Shown here in pieces: positions 13,591 through 35,614 of a stretch of 64,000 bases of DNA; within the stretch, counting starts at the first letter, position 1; the number at the start of each line of letters is the position of its first letter. Under the pieces are notes generated by a model. The model saw only the letters and a list, made by a program, of their open reading frames with translations. It did no database searches and was not told the DNA's origin. Both the position numbers and the translations under genes were made by a program. This DNA is from Phycisphaerae bacterium (GTDB taxonomy: Bacteria; Planctomycetota; Phycisphaerae; UBA1845; UTPLA1): NCBI GenBank assembly GCA_023150615.1, contig JAKLKO010000002.1:248001-312000 (forward strand). Direction: 5' to 3'.

Positions 13591-13596
13591 AAAGAA

Positions 13597-13703
13597 GCTG
13601 GCACGAATCTACTCTCGCCCGTTAGGACTACCATCGACCTGGCGGGCTTCACTTCTGAGTTCGGAATGGGATCAGGTGTTGGTCCGCCAGTATGGGCACC
13701 AGC
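13597..13703 (-). rRNA. rrf: 5S ribosomal RNA
   Basis: The minus strand contains the 5S core CCATTCCGAACTCAGAAGTG and a closing helix formed by GCTGGTGCC at the 5' end and GTGCCAGC at the 3' end, giving about 107 bases. It lies about 235 bases downstream of 23S and just before a terminator. Ends are estimated from the closing helix and may be off by a few bases. Confidence 0.9.
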
Positions 13704-13918
13704 AAGACCCGGGACGGCCTCTCGGCCGGCGCGGGTCGGCAACCTGTCGCCGCGCGTCGGACGCTTCGCCCGGAGGCGGAGGGATCCGATCGCGCGGATA
13801 CGGTACTCGTGGAATAGGGTGCACGCGGGATCGATCCACCGGAATCGAAACCGAACGACGGGCGGCGCGCCGGTTGCGGCGGCCGCCGGATGCGATGGGA
13901 TCGACGGTCCGTGTGAGG

Positions 13919-13938
13919 GACAGCAGATCATCGATGTG

Positions 13939-13944
<6 letters not shown>
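13919..13944 (-). repeat. Downstream arm of the 23S processing stem
   Basis: This 26-base segment is the reverse complement of 16826-16851 at 24 of 26 positions. The two arms bracket 23S rRNA and would form the long helix cut by RNase III to release pre-23S. The mature ends fall inside the helix. Confidence 0.8.
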
Positions 13945-16825
<2,881 letters not shown>

Positions 16826-16832
<7 letters not shown>

Positions 16833-16851
16833 ACATCGATGACGTGCTGTC
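16826..16851 (-). repeat. Upstream arm of the 23S processing stem
   Basis: Partner of 13919-13944. The 24 of 26 complementarity continues the 23S terminal helix outward from the mature 5' end. Confidence 0.8.
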
Positions 16852-17171
16852 GTTCACCGCCCCGACGATCCGGACGGATCGCCGCGACGATTCCTCGACG
16901 GCCGCGCCTCGCGCAACCAAGTTCGCCGTTCGGCGCTCCACATCCATCCGAAGATGGACGTGAAACTACTGATTCGTGGTGGTCTTCACCACACGTACAC
17001 CCTATTCACTTGTCAAACAACGCCGCCCGAAGCCGGAGCCGGTCGACCGCTTCCGGCGACCGCCCTTCGCTCCAGACGTCCCTGCCGCTTCCGCCGCAGG
17101 CTCGATTCCACTCTCGCGAGTGGCCGCGAGCGCGAGGCGCCTGGCCGGGACCGCCCGAACGGCTCGATCAA
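16852..17171 (-). other. tRNA-Ala to 23S spacer
   Basis: About 320 bases of rRNA operon spacer with no tRNA or convincing ORF. It holds a boxA-like antitermination segment at 17002-17020. A hairpin with stem TCCATC-TTCG-GATGGA is visible close to 16945, possibly a processing or stability element. Confidence 0.7.
17002..17020 (-). promoter_or_regulatory. boxA-like antitermination element before 23S
   Basis: The minus strand reads TTGTTTGACAAGTGAATAG. This resembles the boxA-type sequence found before 23S in many bacteria (T-G-T-T-C-T-T-T-G-A-x-A-A pattern), where NusB/NusE binding protects rRNA transcripts from early termination. The assignment rests on this similarity alone. A related segment lies in the operon leader at 17563-17582. 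Confidence 0.45.
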
Positions 17172-17244
17172 TGGAGCCGACCGGGATCGAACCGGTAACC
17201 CCTAGCTTGCAAAGCTAGTGCTCTCCCAATTGAGCTACGGCCCC
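17172..17244 (-). tRNA. tRNA-Ala (anticodon TGC)
   Basis: The 73-base cloverleaf on the minus strand starts GGGGCCGTAGCTCAATTGGG, has anticodon stem CTAGC/GCTAG around loop TTTGCAA, and T arm CCGGTTCGATCCCGG. The acceptor is GGGGCCG/CGGCTCC with discriminator A. No CCA is encoded. It is the second tRNA in the rRNA operon spacer. Confidence 0.97.
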
Positions 17245-17298
17245 GGCTCTTTTTCTCGCCTGTTGCCGAGCAACCGCTCAGCCACATCCTTTCGGACC

Positions 17299-17376
17299 TC
17301 ACGTGCCGCCGGGCTTGAACAGGATGATCCACCCGACAACCGCGAGGAGCGCGATCCAGAATGCCGCGGTGGCCAC
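17299..17376 (-). CDS. Candidate 25-residue membrane microprotein in the tRNA spacer
   Basis: Between tRNA-Ile and tRNA-Ala the minus strand has a small ORF whose GTG start at 17376 is preceded by GGAG with six bases of spacing. It encodes ATAAFWIALLAVVGW and then IILFKPGGT before TGA: one hydrophobic helix followed by a short basic/Gly tail, typical of a single-pass membrane microprotein. A TTG four codons upstream, at the very end of the tRNA, is another start. Against it: the location inside an rRNA precursor, the tiny size and the lack of known homologs. It could be a chance ORF. Confidence 0.3.
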   Translation of the reverse strand: MATAAFWIALLAVVGWIILFKPGGT

Positions 17377-17388
17377 CGGCAACTCCAA

Positions 17389-17462
17389 TGGGCCCGAGTA
17401 GATTCGAACTACTGACCTCGTCCTTATCAGGGACGCGCTCTAACCAACTGAGCTACGAGCCC
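17389..17462 (-). tRNA. tRNA-Ile (anticodon GAT)
   Basis: The 74-base cloverleaf on the minus strand starts GGGCTCGTAGCTCAGTTGGT, with anticodon loop CTGATAA giving GAT, T arm GTAGTTCGAATCTAC and discriminator A. No CCA is encoded. It is the first RNA of the rRNA operon, where a 16S gene would normally precede it. Confidence 0.97.
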
Positions 17463-17513
17463 GCGCGGCTCGAACCGCGTACCCTGCCGGACCGGCCCGG
17501 ACGATCGAACGAC

Positions 17514-17543
17514 AAAAAAAACCACCAGCTCGCTGCTGGTGGT
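17514..17543 (-). terminator. Intrinsic terminator inside the rRNA operon leader
   Basis: The minus strand reads ACCACCAGC, loop AGCGA, GCTGGTGGT, followed directly by seven to eight T. The nine-pair stem and uninterrupted T tract make it one of the clearest intrinsic terminators in the window. It sits between the operon promoter (17695-17722) and tRNA-Ile, with no protein gene upstream that it could serve. Confidence 0.85.
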
Positions 17544-17690
17544 CCAAGACGTCGCGCGTCCTCACCGATTCAGCAGTCAAGCCGAACTTCGTCGTCCAAG
17601 TCCAATCTCAAGCCTCAACATCAAGAGGCTCAGGCCCTCCGACTTCCTCGGCCTACATGTCAACCCGGACGGCCCAACGACCGTCGGGCC
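17544..17690 (-). ncRNA. Leader RNA between rRNA promoter and terminator
   Basis: If transcription starts near 17688 and stops at the hairpin ending at 17514, a transcript of about 170 bases results. It has local hairpins (GGCCCGACGG-TCG-TTGGGCC region; GAGCCTC/GAGGCT near 17620) and no ORF with a start signal. It may be a terminated leader or a free small RNA; it does not match 6S, SRP, tmRNA or RNase P RNA by eye. Existence is inferred from promoter and terminator only. Confidence 0.45.
17563..17582 (-). promoter_or_regulatory. boxA-like element in the rRNA leader
   Basis: The minus strand reads GCTTGACTGCTGAATCGGTG, which aligns with the boxA-like GTTTGACAAGTGAATAGGGTG before 23S, allowing two one-base gaps. 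It lies 20 bases before the terminator hairpin, where an antitermination complex would need to assemble. Confidence 0.35.
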
Positions 17691-17694
17691 CAGT

Positions 17695-17722
17695 AATGTA
17701 GCACGCGGCTGTCCGTTGTCAA
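17695..17722 (-). promoter_or_regulatory. Strong sigma70-type promoter of the tRNA-23S-5S operon
   Basis: The minus strand has TTGACA (17717-17722), a 16-base spacer and TACATT (17695-17700), followed by a likely start around 17688. The match to the vegetative consensus is among the best in the window. Confidence 0.75.
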
Positions 17723-17863
17723 CCCGTTTTCTGCCCCGCTCCCGGTCCTTCGCGCGGCTCGCGGTCGCATGCGCAACTCATTGAACTGCAATGCCTTATA
17801 AACGCGCGTTGGGCAGCGGACCCCGAAATCCGCTCGCGGCTTTGGAGAATCCCATCCCGGCCG

Positions 17864-17891
17864 TTGGCCGGCAGCAATCGCCCGTTATAAT
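17864..17891 (+). promoter_or_regulatory. Promoter of the 53-residue basic protein gene
   Basis: TTGGCC (17864-17869) and a perfect TATAAT (17886-17891) are separated by 16 bases, leaving a leader of about 37 bases before the ATG at 17935. It is divergent from the rRNA promoter. Confidence 0.65.
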
Positions 17892-17934
17892 GCTTCGACT
17901 TTTGTGCGATTCCGACAACTGCAGGAGCGAACTC

Positions 17935-18096
17935 ATGAGAAAATCCAAGGACATCAAGCGAAAGCGACGGAACGCGGCCGAGGAATACCGCAAAGGCAAG
18001 CGGGTCGAGGCCTACAAGCTCTGGTACGAGGCCGCTGCGGAATACCGCGCTCGCCGCCAGCCCGCCAGCAAAGGCCCTGAAACGCCCGCCAGCTAG
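17935..18096 (+). CDS. 53-residue highly basic protein of unknown function
   Basis: The product begins MRKSKDIKRKRRNAAEEYRK and continues GKRVEAYKLWYEAAAEYRARR before a Pro/Ser tail. It is strongly basic and looks helical; the central part resembles a single TPR-like helix pair (A-x-x-L-W-x-x-A). The ATG at 17935 has AGGAG seven bases upstream and a perfect TATAAT farther up, so it is very probably expressed. The charge suggests contact with nucleic acid, perhaps rRNA or ribosome, an idea encouraged only by its divergence from the rRNA operon. I recognise no family. Confidence 0.7.
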   Translation: MRKSKDIKRKRRNAAEEYRKGKRVEAYKLWYEAAAEYRARRQPASKGPETPAS

Positions 18097-18199
18097 CCTT
18101 CAGCTCGCCGCCGGCACCGGCGAAGCGCGCCGGCATCCGATGCGGCGGATTCTTTGCATCGCAATTCCCATCTGGCCTTGGCTGGCGCGGCCTGCCCCG

Positions 18200-19438
18200 A
18201 TGCTCAACTCGCTGCCCTACCTGACGGAGTCCATTCCCGCCGTCCGCGCGACGTTCAAGCAGCGCTACGAGGACTTTCGCGTTGAGGAAATCCCAGCGTA
18301 CGAACCGTGCGGGCACGGCGACCACACGTACTTCGTCGTAGAGAAGGCGGGGCTTGCGACTCTTCGTGCCGTGGCCGATATCGCGAAGGCCCTGGGTGTC
18401 CCGCGAAAGCAGATCGGTGTGGCCGGGTTGAAGGATGCGCGGGGCATCACGACGCAGATGCTGAGCATCGAGCACGTCGAGCCATCACGCATCGCGGCCC
18501 TGCGGATTCCGCGAATTCGAGTGCTTTCCGTCGGCCGTCACACGAACAAGCTGCGGATCGGGCACCTGCGGGGCAACCGGTTCATCCTTCGATTGCGCGA
18601 CGTCGATCCGTCGGCCGTCGAGCGTATCCGCGAGGTCCTCGCAATTCTGTTGCACCGGGGCGTCCCGAACTACTTCGGCGCTCAGCGATTCGGATCGCGG
18701 GGCGACACGGGAGAGATTGGCCGTGCCATGCTGCGGCGCGAGCCGGAAACGGTGATCGCGCTGATCTGCGGCCGGCCGTGCGAGCACGACACCGGCCCTG
18801 TCCGTCGAGCGCGGGAACTTTTTGAGGCCGGCGACTACGAGTCGGCCGCGAAGACCTGGCCGTACATGTATCGCGACAATCGACGTGTCTGCCTCGCGAT
18901 GGCGCGGACGGGTGGAGACGTCCGGAAGGCGATGCACGCGATCGACCGGAGCCTTCTGAAGTTCTTCGTGTCCGCCTATCAGTCGCATCTGTTCAACCAG
19001 GTTGTCGCGAAGCGGATCGACCGGCTGGATCGGGTGCTTACGGGCGACCTGGCGTTCAAACACGCGAACGGCGCGGTCTTTCGCGTCGAGGACCCGGCCG
19101 CGGAACAGCCCCGGGCGGATTTGTTCGACATCTCGCCGACTGGTCCGCTGTTCGGGTACCGCATGACGCAGGCGACGGGCGAGCCGGGGGCGATCGAGTC
19201 GACGGTGCTTCACGAGGCGAAGGTCTCGATCGCGGATTTCGGTAACCTCGGCCCACTCAGCGCGCCAGGAGGACGCCGACCGCTCCGATTTCAGCCGGTG
19301 GATCCGCACGTGGAGCGAGGTTCGGACGATGCCGGACCATTCATCGAGCTTCGGTTCACGCTGGCCGCCGGCTGCTATGCGACGATGGTCCTGCGGGAGA
19401 TCTGCAAGTCTGAGATGGAGGAGGGACGCGCCGATTAG
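18200..19438 (+). CDS. truD: tRNA pseudouridine(13) synthase TruD
   Basis: TruD converts U13 of certain tRNAs to pseudouridine. The 412-residue product has the N-terminal FRVEEIPAYEPCGHGDHTYF segment, the catalytic GLKDARGIT motif with Asp79, and the NYFGAQRFGSRGDTGEIG motif, in the order typical of the family, with the TRUD insertion between them. The start at 18200 fits the usual family N-terminus; an in-frame ATG at 18140 would add a hydrophobic 20-residue extension that seems spurious. It converges with carA, leaving six bases between the stops. Confidence 0.93.
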   Translation: MLNSLPYLTESIPAVRATFKQRYEDFRVEEIPAYEPCGHGDHTYFVVEKAGLATLRAVADIAKALGVPRKQIGVAGLKDARGITTQMLSIEHVEPSRIAALRIPRIRVLSVGRHTNKLRIGHLRGNRFILRLRDVDPSAVERIREVLAILLHRGVPNYFGAQRFGSRGDTGEIGRAMLRREPETVIALICGRPCEHDTGPVRRARELFEAGDYESAAKTWPYMYRDNRRVCLAMARTGGDVRKAMHAIDRSLLKFFVSAYQSHLFNQVVAKRIDRLDRVLTGDLAFKHANGAVFRVEDPAAEQPRADLFDISPTGPLFGYRMTQATGEPGAIESTVLHEAKVSIADFGNLGPLSAPGGRRPLRFQPVDPHVERGSDDAGPFIELRFTLAAGCYATMVLREICKSEMEEGRAD

Positions 19439-19444
19439 CGCGCG

Positions 19445-20616
19445 TCACCGCCCCGTCGCGGCGGATGCCGACTGAAACACGTCCGGCGAGAGTGGCGCGC
19501 GCGAACGCATCAGTTCCGCAAAGCACTGGAACAGGTAGCTTGAATCATGCGGGCCGGGCGCGGCCTCCGGATGGTATTGCACGGAGAAGATCGGCTGCCG
19601 CCCGTGTGCGAAGCCCTCGACGCTGCCGTCAAAGAGGTTCGTATGCGTGACGCAAAGGCCCACGGCCTCCAGCGATTCGCGCGTGACGGCGAAACCGTGG
19701 TTCTGACTTGTGATTTCGACGCGGCGGGCCGCGTGATTCAGGACCGGGTGATTGGCGCCGTGGTGCCCGAACTTGAGCTTGTAGGTCTGCGCGCCGAGCG
19801 CGAGTGCGAGCATCTGATGACCGAGGCAGATGCCGAAGATCGGGACCTTCCCCGCCAGCCCGCGCAGCGTCTCGATGGTGTTCGTCACCGCCGCCGGATC
19901 GCCCGGTCCGTTCCCGGCCAGCACGCCGTCGGGCTTGAGGGCGAGGATCTCCGCCGCCGGAGTCGTGCCGGGCATGACGGTGACCTCAGCGCCGATGCCC
20001 ACGAGGTTGCGGAGGATGTTGAATTTCATGCCGCAGTCAAGCGCGGCGACGCGGAACGCCGGCTTCGATCCGACGGGCTGACCGGAGATTCCCTCCGTCC
20101 AGGGCGATGAGCGATTCGGCATGACGCAGCGGGCGAGGTCCAGCCCGGACATGCTCGGCGCAGAGCGCGCCAGCCCGATCAACTGCTCGTCATCGAGGAT
20201 TTCCGTTGAAAGCGCGCCGCGCATCGCGCCGGAGTTTCGCAGGCGGCGCGTCAGGGCGCGGGTATCGACGCCCGAGATTCCGAGGATCCCCGCGGCGGCA
20301 AGGTACTCGGAGAGGCTCTGGCTTGCGCGCGGATTGCTGTACCGCCGGGCGCACTCGCGCACAACGAATCCGGCCAGGTGCGGGCGGTTCGACTCGACGT
20401 CGTCTGGATTGACGCCATAGTTTCCGATCTGCGTCATCGTCATGGTGACGATCTGGCCGTAGTAGGATGGGTCGGTCAGGATTTCCTGATAGCCGGCGAG
20501 CGCGGTGTTGAAGACGACCTCTCCCGTGGTCGTGCCATTCGCGCCGATCGATTCACCGACGGCGATCGTTCCATCCTCGAGGGCCAGCTTGCAGACGCGT
20601 CTGTTGGGCATGGCGT

Positions 20617-26095: not shown

Positions 26096-30469
<4,374 letters not shown>

Positions 30470-30561
30470 CGGTCCGATCCTCGGTTCTTGGCGTCACTGC
30501 GACCTGCGATCGATCTGGTCTCGTCTCGTGCCGTGCCGCACGGATGCGGCTGCTGTCCGGC

Positions 30562-31056
30562 TCAGCTCACGCGCGGCCGGTCGCGCGCATCGAGCGTCAT
30601 CGGCACCAGTCCGACGCTCTTCCTGAATCCCAACTCCTCGCAGAAATCCACTTCGGTACCGTAGGCCGTCACGTCGATCCGCTCGCACCCCATGCCGCGC
30701 AGCGCGTTCAGCACGCGATCGGCCAGCGCTCGCGCGATGCCGAACTGGTCGTGCTCGACGCGGCCGTCCCGCGCCGTGACGGCGCCAGGCCCCTGGAACG
30801 CCGGATCGAGCTTGCATTCCGTCAGGTAACCGCGAACGCCGTCGGCCATGCCGCGGGCGAAGCCGATCAGGCGGCCGTCCGGCGCGCGCGCGGTCACGAA
30901 GCAGACGGAGTTCGCGATCATGCGCTCGAGCTTCGTCGGGGAATCCGGCACGGGATGCCCCTGCGCGGCATAGAACGCACGGAGTTCCGCGGCGTCGGGT
31001 CGCGCCGCATCGTCGTACACGACTTCGATCGTCGACGCTTGCGTCATCGTCGTCAT
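30562..31056 (-). CDS. GNAT-like acetyltransferase located between rpoB and rpoC
   Basis: The 164-residue product reads like a small GNAT N-acetyltransferase: CFVTARAPDGRLIGFARGM (beta strands 2-3), GYLTECKLDPAFQGPGAV (strand 4 with an Asp-Pro-x-x-x-G-x-G pattern near the acetyl-CoA loop), IARALADRVLNALRGMGCER (helix 3) and the EVDFCEELGFRKSVGLVPM end typical of GNATs. The ATG at 31056 has AGGAGA six bases upstream, an excellent site. It is 76 bases after rpoB and 92 before rpoC, so it is almost certainly cotranscribed with them. The substrate is unknown; protein acetylation of the transcription or translation machinery is only a speculation from position. Confidence 0.75.
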   Translation of the reverse strand: MTTMTQASTIEVVYDDAARPDAAELRAFYAAQGHPVPDSPTKLERMIANSVCFVTARAPDGRLIGFARGMADGVRGYLTECKLDPAFQGPGAVTARDGRVEHDQFGIARALADRVLNALRGMGCERIDVTAYGTEVDFCEELGFRKSVGLVPMTLDARDRPRVS

Positions 31057-31132
31057 GCAGGTCTCCTCGCGTGCGGTCGGACCCCATCGGGCCCGTCCCG
31101 GACGAAAACTCCCCAGCGACACCGGTCCGCGA

Positions 31133-34100
31133 CTACACGAGCTTCTTCTTCTCCAGGACGATGTTCATTCCCAACCCGCGAATCTCGTTGCACAGCACGT
31201 CGAACGAGACGGGCGTGCCCGCCTCGAGCGTGTTCGTGCCCTTCACCATCGATTCGTATATCTTCGTACGTCCCTCGACGTCGTCCGACTTGACCGTCAG
31301 CAACTCCTGCAGGACGTGGGCGGCGCCGTACGCCTCCAGGCCCCAGACTTCCATCTCACCGAAGCGCTGGCCACCCGTCCGCGCCTTGCCGCCCAGCGGC
31401 TGCTGCGTGATCAGCGAGTACGGACCCGTCGACCGAGCGTGGATCTTGTCATCCACGAGGTGATGCAGCTTCATCATGTAGATGTAGCCGACGGTCACCG
31501 GCTGATCGAACGGCTCGCCCGACCGGCCGTCATGGAGTCGGATCTTCCCGCCGAACGGCATCTCGACGAGGAGCGTTCGCTTGTCGCCGGCGTCCAGAAT
31601 CGTAGCAGGATCGTTGCGGAGGGAGCGCACGCGCTGGTTCGCCTCGGCGACGGCGGTATGGATCTCCTCTTCGCGCGCGCCGTCAAAGACGGGTGTGACC
31701 GCCTGGAAGCCGAGGATCGCCGCGGCCCAGCCGAGGTGCGTCTCGAGGATCTGCCCGACGTTCATTCGGCTGGGCACGCCCAGCGGATTGAGGAGGATGT
31801 CGACCGGCGTGCCGTCGTCGAGGAACGGCATGTCCTCTTCCGGCATGATCTTGGCGATGACGCCCTTGTTACCGTGCCGGCCGGCCATCTTGTCACCGAC
31901 CGAAAGCTGCCGCTTGGTCGCGATGTAGACCTTGACCATCTCGAGCACGCCGGAGGCAAGCTCGTCGCCGCGCTTGAGCTGCGCCGCCTTGCGCTCGCGT
32001 TCCTCGACCTGCTCGACGACGCGCGGCCAGTAGCGGTGGTAGATCTTCTCAGAGTCCTCGCGGACCGACGCGGGCTTGACCCACTTCATGTCGAAGGCCC
32101 ACTTGTTCGGTTCGCCGATCTGCTCCATGACGACGTCGATGTTGTCGCTCTTGGCGACCTTTTGCTTGGTGTTGGGGTCGATGATCGGCTGGCCCGAGAG
32201 CTTCTCGATCTCGTCGATCATCTGCCGGAAGATCGCGGCGGCGCGAACGTTGTGCTGGTCGCGGACCTCCTTGACGCGGCGGTTCAGCAGTTTCTTCTGA
32301 TCCTCCGTCATCTGTGTGCGGCGGCTGAATCGCTTCGTCGCGATGACGATGCCGCCCGCGCCGCTCGGCACCTCGAGCGAGTCGTTCTTCACGTCTTCGC
32401 CGGCGCGGCCGAAGATCGCGTGCAGCAGCTTCTCCTCCGGGCTCAGCTCGCTCTTGCTCTTGGGCGAGACCTTGCCGACGAGGATGTCGCCGGGGCCGAC
32501 CTCGGTGCCGATGCGCACGACGCCGTATTCATCGAGGTTCCGGAGCGCCTTCTCCGAGACGTTCGGGATGTCGCGCGTGAATTCCTCGCGACCGAGCTTC
32601 GTCTCGCGAATCTCCACTTCATAGTCCTCGATGTGGATACTCGTAAAGACGTCGTCGCGGACGAGCCGCTCGGAAATGAGAATGGCGTCCTCGAAGTTGT
32701 AGCCGTCGAACGGCATAAACGCGACGAGCACGTTTCGCCCGAGCGCCAGCTCACCGTTCTTGCAGGCCGGTCCGTCAGCGATGATCTGGCCCTTCTTGAC
32801 CTTCTGGCCGAGACGCACGAGCGGGACCTGATTCAGGCAGGTGCGCTCGTTGAGTCCGTGGAACTTGCGGAGGAGGTATTCCTCGGTGTTGTCGAGAACG
32901 ATCCGCGTTCCATCGACGTAGGTCACCGTGCCGTTCTGAAGCGCGCGGACAACCATGCCGCTGTTGGCGGCCACGTCGCGTTCCATGCCGGTGGCGACAA
33001 CGGGCGGCTCGGTGACCAGCAGCGGAACCGCCTGGCGCTGCATGTTGGAACCCATCAGCGCGCGGTTGGCGTCATCGTGCTCGAGGAACGGGATCAGCGC
33101 GGCCGACACGCCGACCGTCTGCTTGGGCGAGATATCGACGTATTCGACATCCTTGACATCGACGGTCGCCAGCTCGCCGCGGACGCGCGCGACGACCGGA
33201 CCGCTCACCAGGCTCCCCTTTTCGCCCGTGTGATCGACAATCTCGGGCGGGGCGAGGATCATCTTCATCTCTTCGTCGGCCCGCAGTTCCTCGACCTCGC
33301 CGTTGACCTTGCCCGACTTGTCGACCTTGCGGTACGGCGTGATCAGGAAGCCGTATTCATCGATCGTGGAGTAGATCGACAGGGACGCGATGAGTCCGAT
33401 GTTGGTGCCTTCCGGCGTTTCGATCGGACAAATCCGGCCGTAGTGGCTGATGTGAACGTCGCGGACCTCGAAGCCGGCGCGCTTCCGGTTCAGTCCGCCG
33501 GGGCCGAGTGCCGAGAGCCGCCGCTCGTGGGTGAGCTGCGAGAGCGGGTTCGTCTGGTCGACGACCTGCGACAGCTCGCCGCGTCCGAAGAAGTACTCGA
33601 TGGCGCTGCTGATGCTCTTGGTATTCACCAGCTCGACGATCTTGCCGAGCTCGCTCGGCTCCTTGAGGCTCATGCGCTCCTGGACCGTGCGGCGGAGCTT
33701 GAGGAAGCCCTTGCGCAGCTCGTCGCTGGCCAGCTCGTCGATCGTCCGCAGGCGGCGGTTGCCGAGGTGGTCGATGTCGTCTTCCTGAACGACGACGCGC
33801 GACGTGAGCCAGCCGAATTCGCGGATCGTGCCGAGCGACTGCCCATCCGGCCCGGTCAGGCGCTCGAAGACCTTCTGCACGTGCTGCTCGTCCTCGAAGG
33901 CGATGTGCTTGGCCTGTCCGAAGAGTTCCCGCCACTCGGTTTCGATCTTCGACGCGAACTGCGACGTCAGGCGCTTGGCGTCCGCGTCGCTGAACGTGTA
34001 CATCGCGCCCGGGTACGGGTAGTAGTTCATGTACTCGATCTGCACGGCCTCGGGTTCGCGGCGCTTGAGGTCCGCCAGATAGGCGTCGATGCCCTCGAGG

Positions 34101-35614
34101 ATCCGCGCGCAGCGCGTGCGAATCACCGAGACGACGAATTCCTTTGACGCGCGGGTGATGTCCGAATCGCGCGTCTCCTGGCCGCTGCGACCGAGCACGA
34201 CGCGCATCAGGTCGAGGTCGAGCGAATCGGGCGGGACCCACTCGGTCGGCGAGTCGCTCAGGTGCCGCAACTGGCGCCGAATCTCGTGCATCGCCTCGGT
34301 CGGATCGACGCGCTTTCGCGAGGCGCGGATCGAGTCAAAGCTGCCCAGCTCGACGTCTTGCTTCGGATCGCGGATGCTTCGGCCCTTCTTCAGGTAGCCC
34401 TTGATCTGCTCCGCCAGCTCGCGCGTCGCGCGGAGAACGCACAGTTCGAACGGGACGCGCCGCAGGATCGAGTAGCCGACGCGGTTCTGGCTGCGAAGAT
34501 CGAGCAAGTAGCGCAGACATGCGACGACGTCGGCCGGCATGAGCGTGTGAACCGACGCCGGGATGAAGAGGCCGAACTTGCGGTTGATGCGGAACCGGCC
34601 GACCTTGCCCAGTCGATAGCGATTGGGGTCGCTGAACTTCTCGTGGAACAGCTTGACCGCCTTGTCGAGCTGCGCCGGGTTGCCGGGCCGAAGCCGCTGG
34701 TAGATCTTCAGCAGCGCGTCTTCGTGCGTACGGCTGTTGTCCTCGGCGAGCGTGTTGAGGATGAGCGGATCGACCACCTTGTCGATCACCTCGACCTGCT
34801 TGATGCCCGACTCGATGATGCGATTGACCGCATCGCCGATCGGACAGCCGGCGCGAACGAGCGGCTCCGCGCTTTCCGCCGCTCCGTCGCCATCCTCCGG
34901 CCGGATGTCGGAAACGGCGTACATATCGGGCTTCAGGTTCGCCGTGCGAACGACGCGCGTTTCATAGAATTCACGCACAATCGCGGCGTCGGTGCCGTAG
35001 TGCGGGTCCATCGCCCGCAGGAACATCGTGGCCGGGATCTTGCTCGACTGATCAATGCGAACGGCGAGCACGTCCTTCCGCGTAATGTTGATTTCGATCC
35101 AGCTCCCGCGCTCGGGAATGATGCGGCAGGCGTGCAGTGCGCGGTCCCCTTCGAGCGTTTCCTTGATGAAGTCGACGCCCGGCGAGCGGTGCAACTGCGA
35201 GACGATGACCCGCTCGGCGCCGTTCACGATGAACTCGCCGCCGCCGATCATCACCGGAATCTCGCCGAGATAGATGTTCTCCTCGACGATCTCGTCCGTG
35301 TCCTTGCGAACGAGGCGGCACTGGATCCGCAACGGCATGCCGTAGGTCAGGCGGAGCTGCCGGCACTCATCGGGCGTGTAGCGCGGCTTGCCGAGCGAGT
35401 AGTTCAGATACTCGAGCGAAACGCTCTCATCGTAGCTGCTGATCGGGAAGACCTCGCGCAGCAGCGATTCGAGACCGTGGTTCTCGCGCTTCTCGGGCGC
35501 GACCTCGGCCTGAAGAAACCGCGCGTAGGACTCGGTCTGCAACTCGATCAGATTGGGGATCGGCATGGCATCGCCGATCCGCGAGAAGTTCCGAACTTCC
35601 TTGATGTCCAGCAT
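31133..35614 (-). CDS. rpoB: DNA-directed RNA polymerase beta subunit
   Basis: The 1493-residue product is longer than E. coli RpoB (1342), with acidic and basic insertions. The rifampicin pocket reads [19 protein letters not shown] followed by LSALGPGGL; positions equivalent to E. coli 513, 516, 526, 529 and 531 are conserved, while 514 and 515 are Val and 518 is Thr. The C-terminal [20 protein letters not shown]-like segment ([20 protein letters not shown] here) is present. A promoter lies at 35873-35900, giving a leader of about 250 bases, and the ribosome binding site sits in the palindrome GAGAGGACCTCTC. Confidence 0.98.

Follow-up and report, generated by a model that had tools for sequence, protein, structure and literature searches.

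The window, the whole stretch of 64,000 nucleotides of Phycisphaerae DNA that was analysed, contained a complete gene for a GNAT-fold protein of 164 amino acids between rpoB and rpoC. Positions 30470–31132 are exactly the minus-strand interval that separates the start codon of rpoC (30469) from the stop codon of rpoB (31133); within it, the gene is separated from rpoB by 76 nt and from rpoC by 92 nt (Table 1). All three genes run in one direction, and open reading frames resembling rplK, rplA, rplJ and rplL, identified by reading their translations, lie 5' of rpoB on the same strand. The sequence-only reading had proposed a complete GNAT-like gene with a good ribosome binding site and normal spacing on both sides, all of which was borne out: the protein matched Pfam PF00583 with 27.7 bits (cut-off 20.7), and both neighbours were confirmed by NCBIfam.

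Table 1. Features of the rpoB–rpoC region, with positions in the window.
Feature	Position	Strand	Evidence
rpoB, upstream neighbour	31133..35614	-	TIGR02013, 1538.6 bits (NCBIfam)
Shine-Dalgarno-like GAGGAG, 6 nt 5' of the GNAT ATG	31063..31068	-	sequence reading
GNAT-fold gene, 164 aa, ATG at 31056 to TGA	30562..31056	-	translation, Pfam PF00583, conservation, AlphaFold, Foldseek
Split acetyl-CoA loop: Q88-G89, inserted P90 to Q104, F105	30742..30795	-	profile alignment with rice SNAT; canonical 138-aa GNAT
rpoC, downstream neighbour	26096..30469	-	TIGR02386, 1701.5 bits (NCBIfam)

Elsewhere in the window, an rRNA unit (13596–19445) comprised tRNA-Ile, tRNA-Ala, 23S and 5S genes with no 16S gene upstream. 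No SSU match was found in the window, and the place expected for the 16S gene was taken by other, oppositely oriented reading frames, of which one looked truD-like by eye.

A Shine-Dalgarno-like motif was present at the matching position in 78 of 85 fetched orthologues, and the median spacers at the orthologous loci were 52.5 and 84 nt. Neither a promoter (scanned as the sigma-70 consensus) nor a terminator consensus was found between 30000 and 31600. The shared strand, the short spacers, the Shine-Dalgarno-like sites and this absence of consensus signals make co-transcription with rpoB and rpoC likely. Judging by the layout, the gene therefore likely shares a message with the RNA polymerase genes, and to that extent the co-expression assumed in the sequence-only reading was upheld.

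In bacteria, few genes are paired as strictly as rpoB and rpoC. The distribution of this arrangement was surveyed, and the insertion proved not to be limited to one genome. The gene was present in all 17 genomes of the GTDB family of the window, the other 16 copies showing 61–71% identity over the match; both rpoB and rpoC flanked it in 16 of the 17, the remaining locus being cut by a contig end. Within the GTDB order it was matched in 88 of 114 genomes, with both flanks visible in 85 of the carriers and contig ends cutting the other three (G007, G320 and G385). In these carriers the gene always lay in the rpoB–rpoC gap and was found elsewhere in 0 of 88. The same gene at the same site in 88 genomes places the arrangement far beyond chance. 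Of the 105 genomes of the order with an rpoC start present, 88 carried the gene and 17 did not; the remaining 9 genomes had neither an rpoC match nor the GNAT gene.

Outside the order, the sample of the phylum comprised another 291 genomes, none of which gave a match (E 1e-6). A wider scan of 84,980 species with conserved peptide patterns of the protein returned 79 loci, of which 77 were flanked by both rpoB and rpoC and 2 were at contig ends. Nearly all were labelled as metagenome-assembled genomes of Planctomycetota/Phycisphaerae, and all were from uncultured organisms; the two loci labelled proteobacterial were probably from mislabelled bins. At a locus labelled deltaproteobacterial (L172), rpoB, the GNAT gene and rpoC were arranged as in the order and the GNAT protein was nearest to members of family f80 (67%), for which reasons the label was doubted and may reflect mislabelling or a stray contig.

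In the gene tree, families f85, f80 and f79 were each confined to one side of a branch, as was f1 except for one row. This agreement with family boundaries indicates an old gene with mostly vertical inheritance. Values of dN/dS were approximately 0.03–0.2 in most pairs and at most 0.41, in one pair; judging from these sequence comparisons, the gene is under purifying selection. Mapping of carriage on the polymerase tree gave 9 changes, 3 of them forced by well-supported branches. The non-carriers of the order comprised f82, f83, most of f84 and six f85 genomes, and their rpoB–rpoC gaps measured 71–286 bp, with the exception of one genome (G352) with a gap of 743 bp holding a HEPN-type gene pair. 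No relocated copy was found in genomes that had lost the gene. The several clean losses, and the absence of the gene from 17 members of the order with an rpoC start present, indicated that it is not essential. One loss could be followed within a single genus: the carrier G381 (L141) and the non-carrier G382 (L241) have near-identical polymerases and a common rpoC leader, GTTTCCAGAAAGGGAATAGCCGCTCATG, whose conservation marks the loss in G382 as a clean, natural deletion. The sole carrier in f84 (G347) was on a long branch, and its carriage may reflect loss in its f84 relatives, or transfer.

The AlphaFold model, computed with 67 sequences, had a GNAT fold (pLDDT 88.6, pTM 0.82), and its top PDB matches were acetyltransferases, in line with the initial assignment. 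A profile alignment with rice SNAT showed that the acetyl-CoA loop carries approximately 15 extra residues between Q88-G89 and G106-I107-A108, so that the contiguous Q/R-x-x-G-x-G/A pyrophosphate loop is absent from the protein. This loop is a common GNAT motif, not a universal one in the superfamily. Since the protein belongs to the GNATs by fold and by profile while its loop is split, it is a variant rather than a typical member. Both loop parts, Q-G and G-I-A, were retained in nearly all aligned sequences. The invariant positions of the 67 sequences included C81, K82, L83, Q88, G89, R99, E101, H102, D103 and A108, and the insert thus contains an invariant R-x-E-H-D. The insert was also the least confident region of the model, with a mean pLDDT of 55 over residues 91–100; such a low value despite invariance would be expected for a loop that becomes ordered on ligand binding. 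The usual position of the catalytic tyrosine was occupied by C, L or V. Some members of the family of the window carried a second, canonical GNAT of 138 amino acids (L019–L021), weakly similar and without the loop insertion. Its loop reads Q-x-Q-G-I-G without interruption, and it has YYPHVGM or YYPHIGM where the 164-amino-acid protein has DFCEELGF. The most fitting description of the latter is a new subfamily of GNATs linked to the expression of RNA polymerase.

The closest known proteins were rice serotonin N-acetyltransferase SNAT1 and plastid GNATs of the NatG type (PDB 7daj, 7dak and 6k5m). Rice SNAT was the best Foldseek match of the model; the alignment to the structure with acetyl-CoA had TM scores of 0.74/0.82 at 23% identity (E 1.3e-10). 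Rice SNAT1 shares with the protein the GNAT fold and the loop ends, Q-G and G-hydrophobic-G/A, but the latter differs in its insert of approximately 15 residues, in the C, L or V at the tyrosine position, in its bacterial origin and in its rpoBC location. The SNAT1 of these structures is presumably the same UniProt entry as rice plastid GNAT2. Rice plastid GNAT2 acetylated peptides at up to approximately 33 units, and serotonin, lysine and arginine at 0.6 or less (PMC8902505). DR_1678, GNA1-like proteins and other GNATs followed in the Foldseek list. By sequence, the best PDB match was 3s6f, the putative Deinococcus radiodurans acetyltransferase DR_1678, with most of the alignment in the N-terminal half (1.2e-07 by sequence, 5.4e-05 by profile). 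At the loop the profile alignment was interrupted, leaving positions 67 to 98 unaligned, and sequence similarity to solved GNATs was weak. The ribosomal S18 N-acetyltransferase RimI has the same fold and was among the Foldseek matches; identity with RimI was rejected, since the locus was absent from the 7 matches of the genome to TIGR01575, the best of which reached 34.3 bits and none the cut-off of 86.4. A phage origin was likewise rejected, the only PHROG match being at chance level (E 0.078). Our literature search found no paper on an acetyltransferase between rpoB and rpoC, and nothing relevant on genes inserted in rpoBC.

The premise that rpoB and rpoC are adjacent in nearly all bacteria needs a caveat for this class. 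Among approximately 48 class genomes outside the order, chosen from strong rpoC matches and not randomly, 9 had rpoB–rpoC gaps of 400–1115 bp with other genes. Three of the loci outside the order held a BrnT toxin-type gene followed by an antitoxin-like gene (L261 in G464, L262 in G415 and L263 in G422), assigned by Pfam in G464 (1.3e-25) and by eye in G415 and G422. In L239 (G352), L245 (G399) and L246 (G361), the gap contained a HEPN-domain gene and, after it, one of approximately 90 amino acids without a Pfam match. Pfam detected the HEPN domain in G352 and G361; the gene pair of G176 (L290) resembled those of G352, G399 and G361. Extra HEPN-type pairs occurred in the gap of 2 GNAT carriers, and G361 had two HEPN-type copies, one on either side of the GNAT gene. 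The gap of G142 contained a PDDEXK_3 gene, and those of L243 (G417) and L247 (G482), both outside the order, a gene of approximately 200 amino acids with weak similarity to DUF6188 (0.00056, in G482). The rpoB–rpoC gap in Phycisphaerae is thus a repeated landing site, and because it hosts such varied genes, the inference from location to function is weakened for the GNAT gene. Of all the gap genes, only the GNAT gene has been retained through most of an order.

Such a permissive and presumably well-expressed site could also house a GNAT that acetylates a small molecule (a polyamine, an amino acid, an antibiotic or another amine), in which case the position would say nothing of the substrate. 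Substrates of GNATs are hard to predict, the Foldseek matches included GNA1, SSAT, aminoglycoside and N-acetylglutamate enzymes, unrelated genes have entered the same gap elsewhere in the class, and a metabolic role that the cell can do without would suit the repeated losses. A position that is merely tolerated should drift, yet no carrier had the gene elsewhere and no relocated copies were found; we consider a small-molecule enzyme possible but rather unlikely. The HEPN and BrnT genes in the gaps of related genomes also bring to mind a GNAT toxin of the TacT/AtaT type, acetylating aminoacyl-tRNA and captured in an essential operon with or without its antitoxin. The gaps of nearly all carriers hold one gene with short spacers and no adjacent antitoxin, the long vertical inheritance and strong conservation of the gene do not resemble those of toxin–antitoxin modules, and there was no PADLOC match, so that this reading was rejected as very improbable.

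The change in the loop could abolish acetyl-CoA binding or activity. The interrupted cofactor loop and the lost tyrosine, together with the high conservation of the loop and the strict link to rpoBC, would suit a protein of GNAT fold that has lost its acetylating activity and acts as a ligand binder or a direct accessory factor of RNA polymerase, with the rebuilt loop as its binding surface. Retention of Q-G and G-I-A in nearly all sequences suggests that CoA binding persists, and we regard a non-acetylating protein as unlikely.

Our preferred reading, to which we assign a tentative probability of about 0.4, is a single-copy, vertically inherited N-acetyltransferase of the GNAT fold, made together with the polymerase from the rpoB–rpoC gap and using acetyl-CoA, with a protein as its guessed substrate. 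The entry of the gene into the gap would date from the ancestor of the Phycisphaerae order or earlier, and the gene would be translated from a message in common with RNA polymerase. Acetyl-CoA would most likely be the cofactor, its loop residues Q-G and G-I-A having been kept though separated. On ligand binding, the inserted loop with its R-x-E-H-D probably closes over the active site, and it probably provides acid/base groups in place of the missing tyrosine. Because the nearest structural relatives include plant plastid GNATs acting on polypeptide N-termini and lysines, a protein is the leading guess for the substrate, perhaps one made alongside the enzyme and possibly belonging to the transcription–translation machinery. 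The peptide activity of the rice plastid enzyme makes a protein substrate reasonable by analogy.

Acetylation of polymerase or ribosomal proteins, the possibility raised in the sequence-only reading, is conjectural but plausible. Across 400 columns (the C-terminal 300 residues of RpoB and the N-terminal 100 of RpoC), no polymerase lysine tracked the presence of the GNAT gene, and the strongest lysine column ran opposite to it; several lineages, moreover, do without the gene. It is doubtful that the protein is an order-wide, dedicated acetyltransferase of RNA polymerase (or L7/L12), with a new split-loop catalytic design and made in step with the polymerase.

The R-x-E-H-D insert would represent a new way of building an acetyl-CoA site in a very large enzyme superfamily, and the several natural losses provide matched pairs for comparative tests of the role of the protein. 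That an order of these Phycisphaerae has kept the GNAT gene at a single position between rpoB and rpoC, under purifying selection, suggests a link between the dose of the protein and polymerase synthesis.
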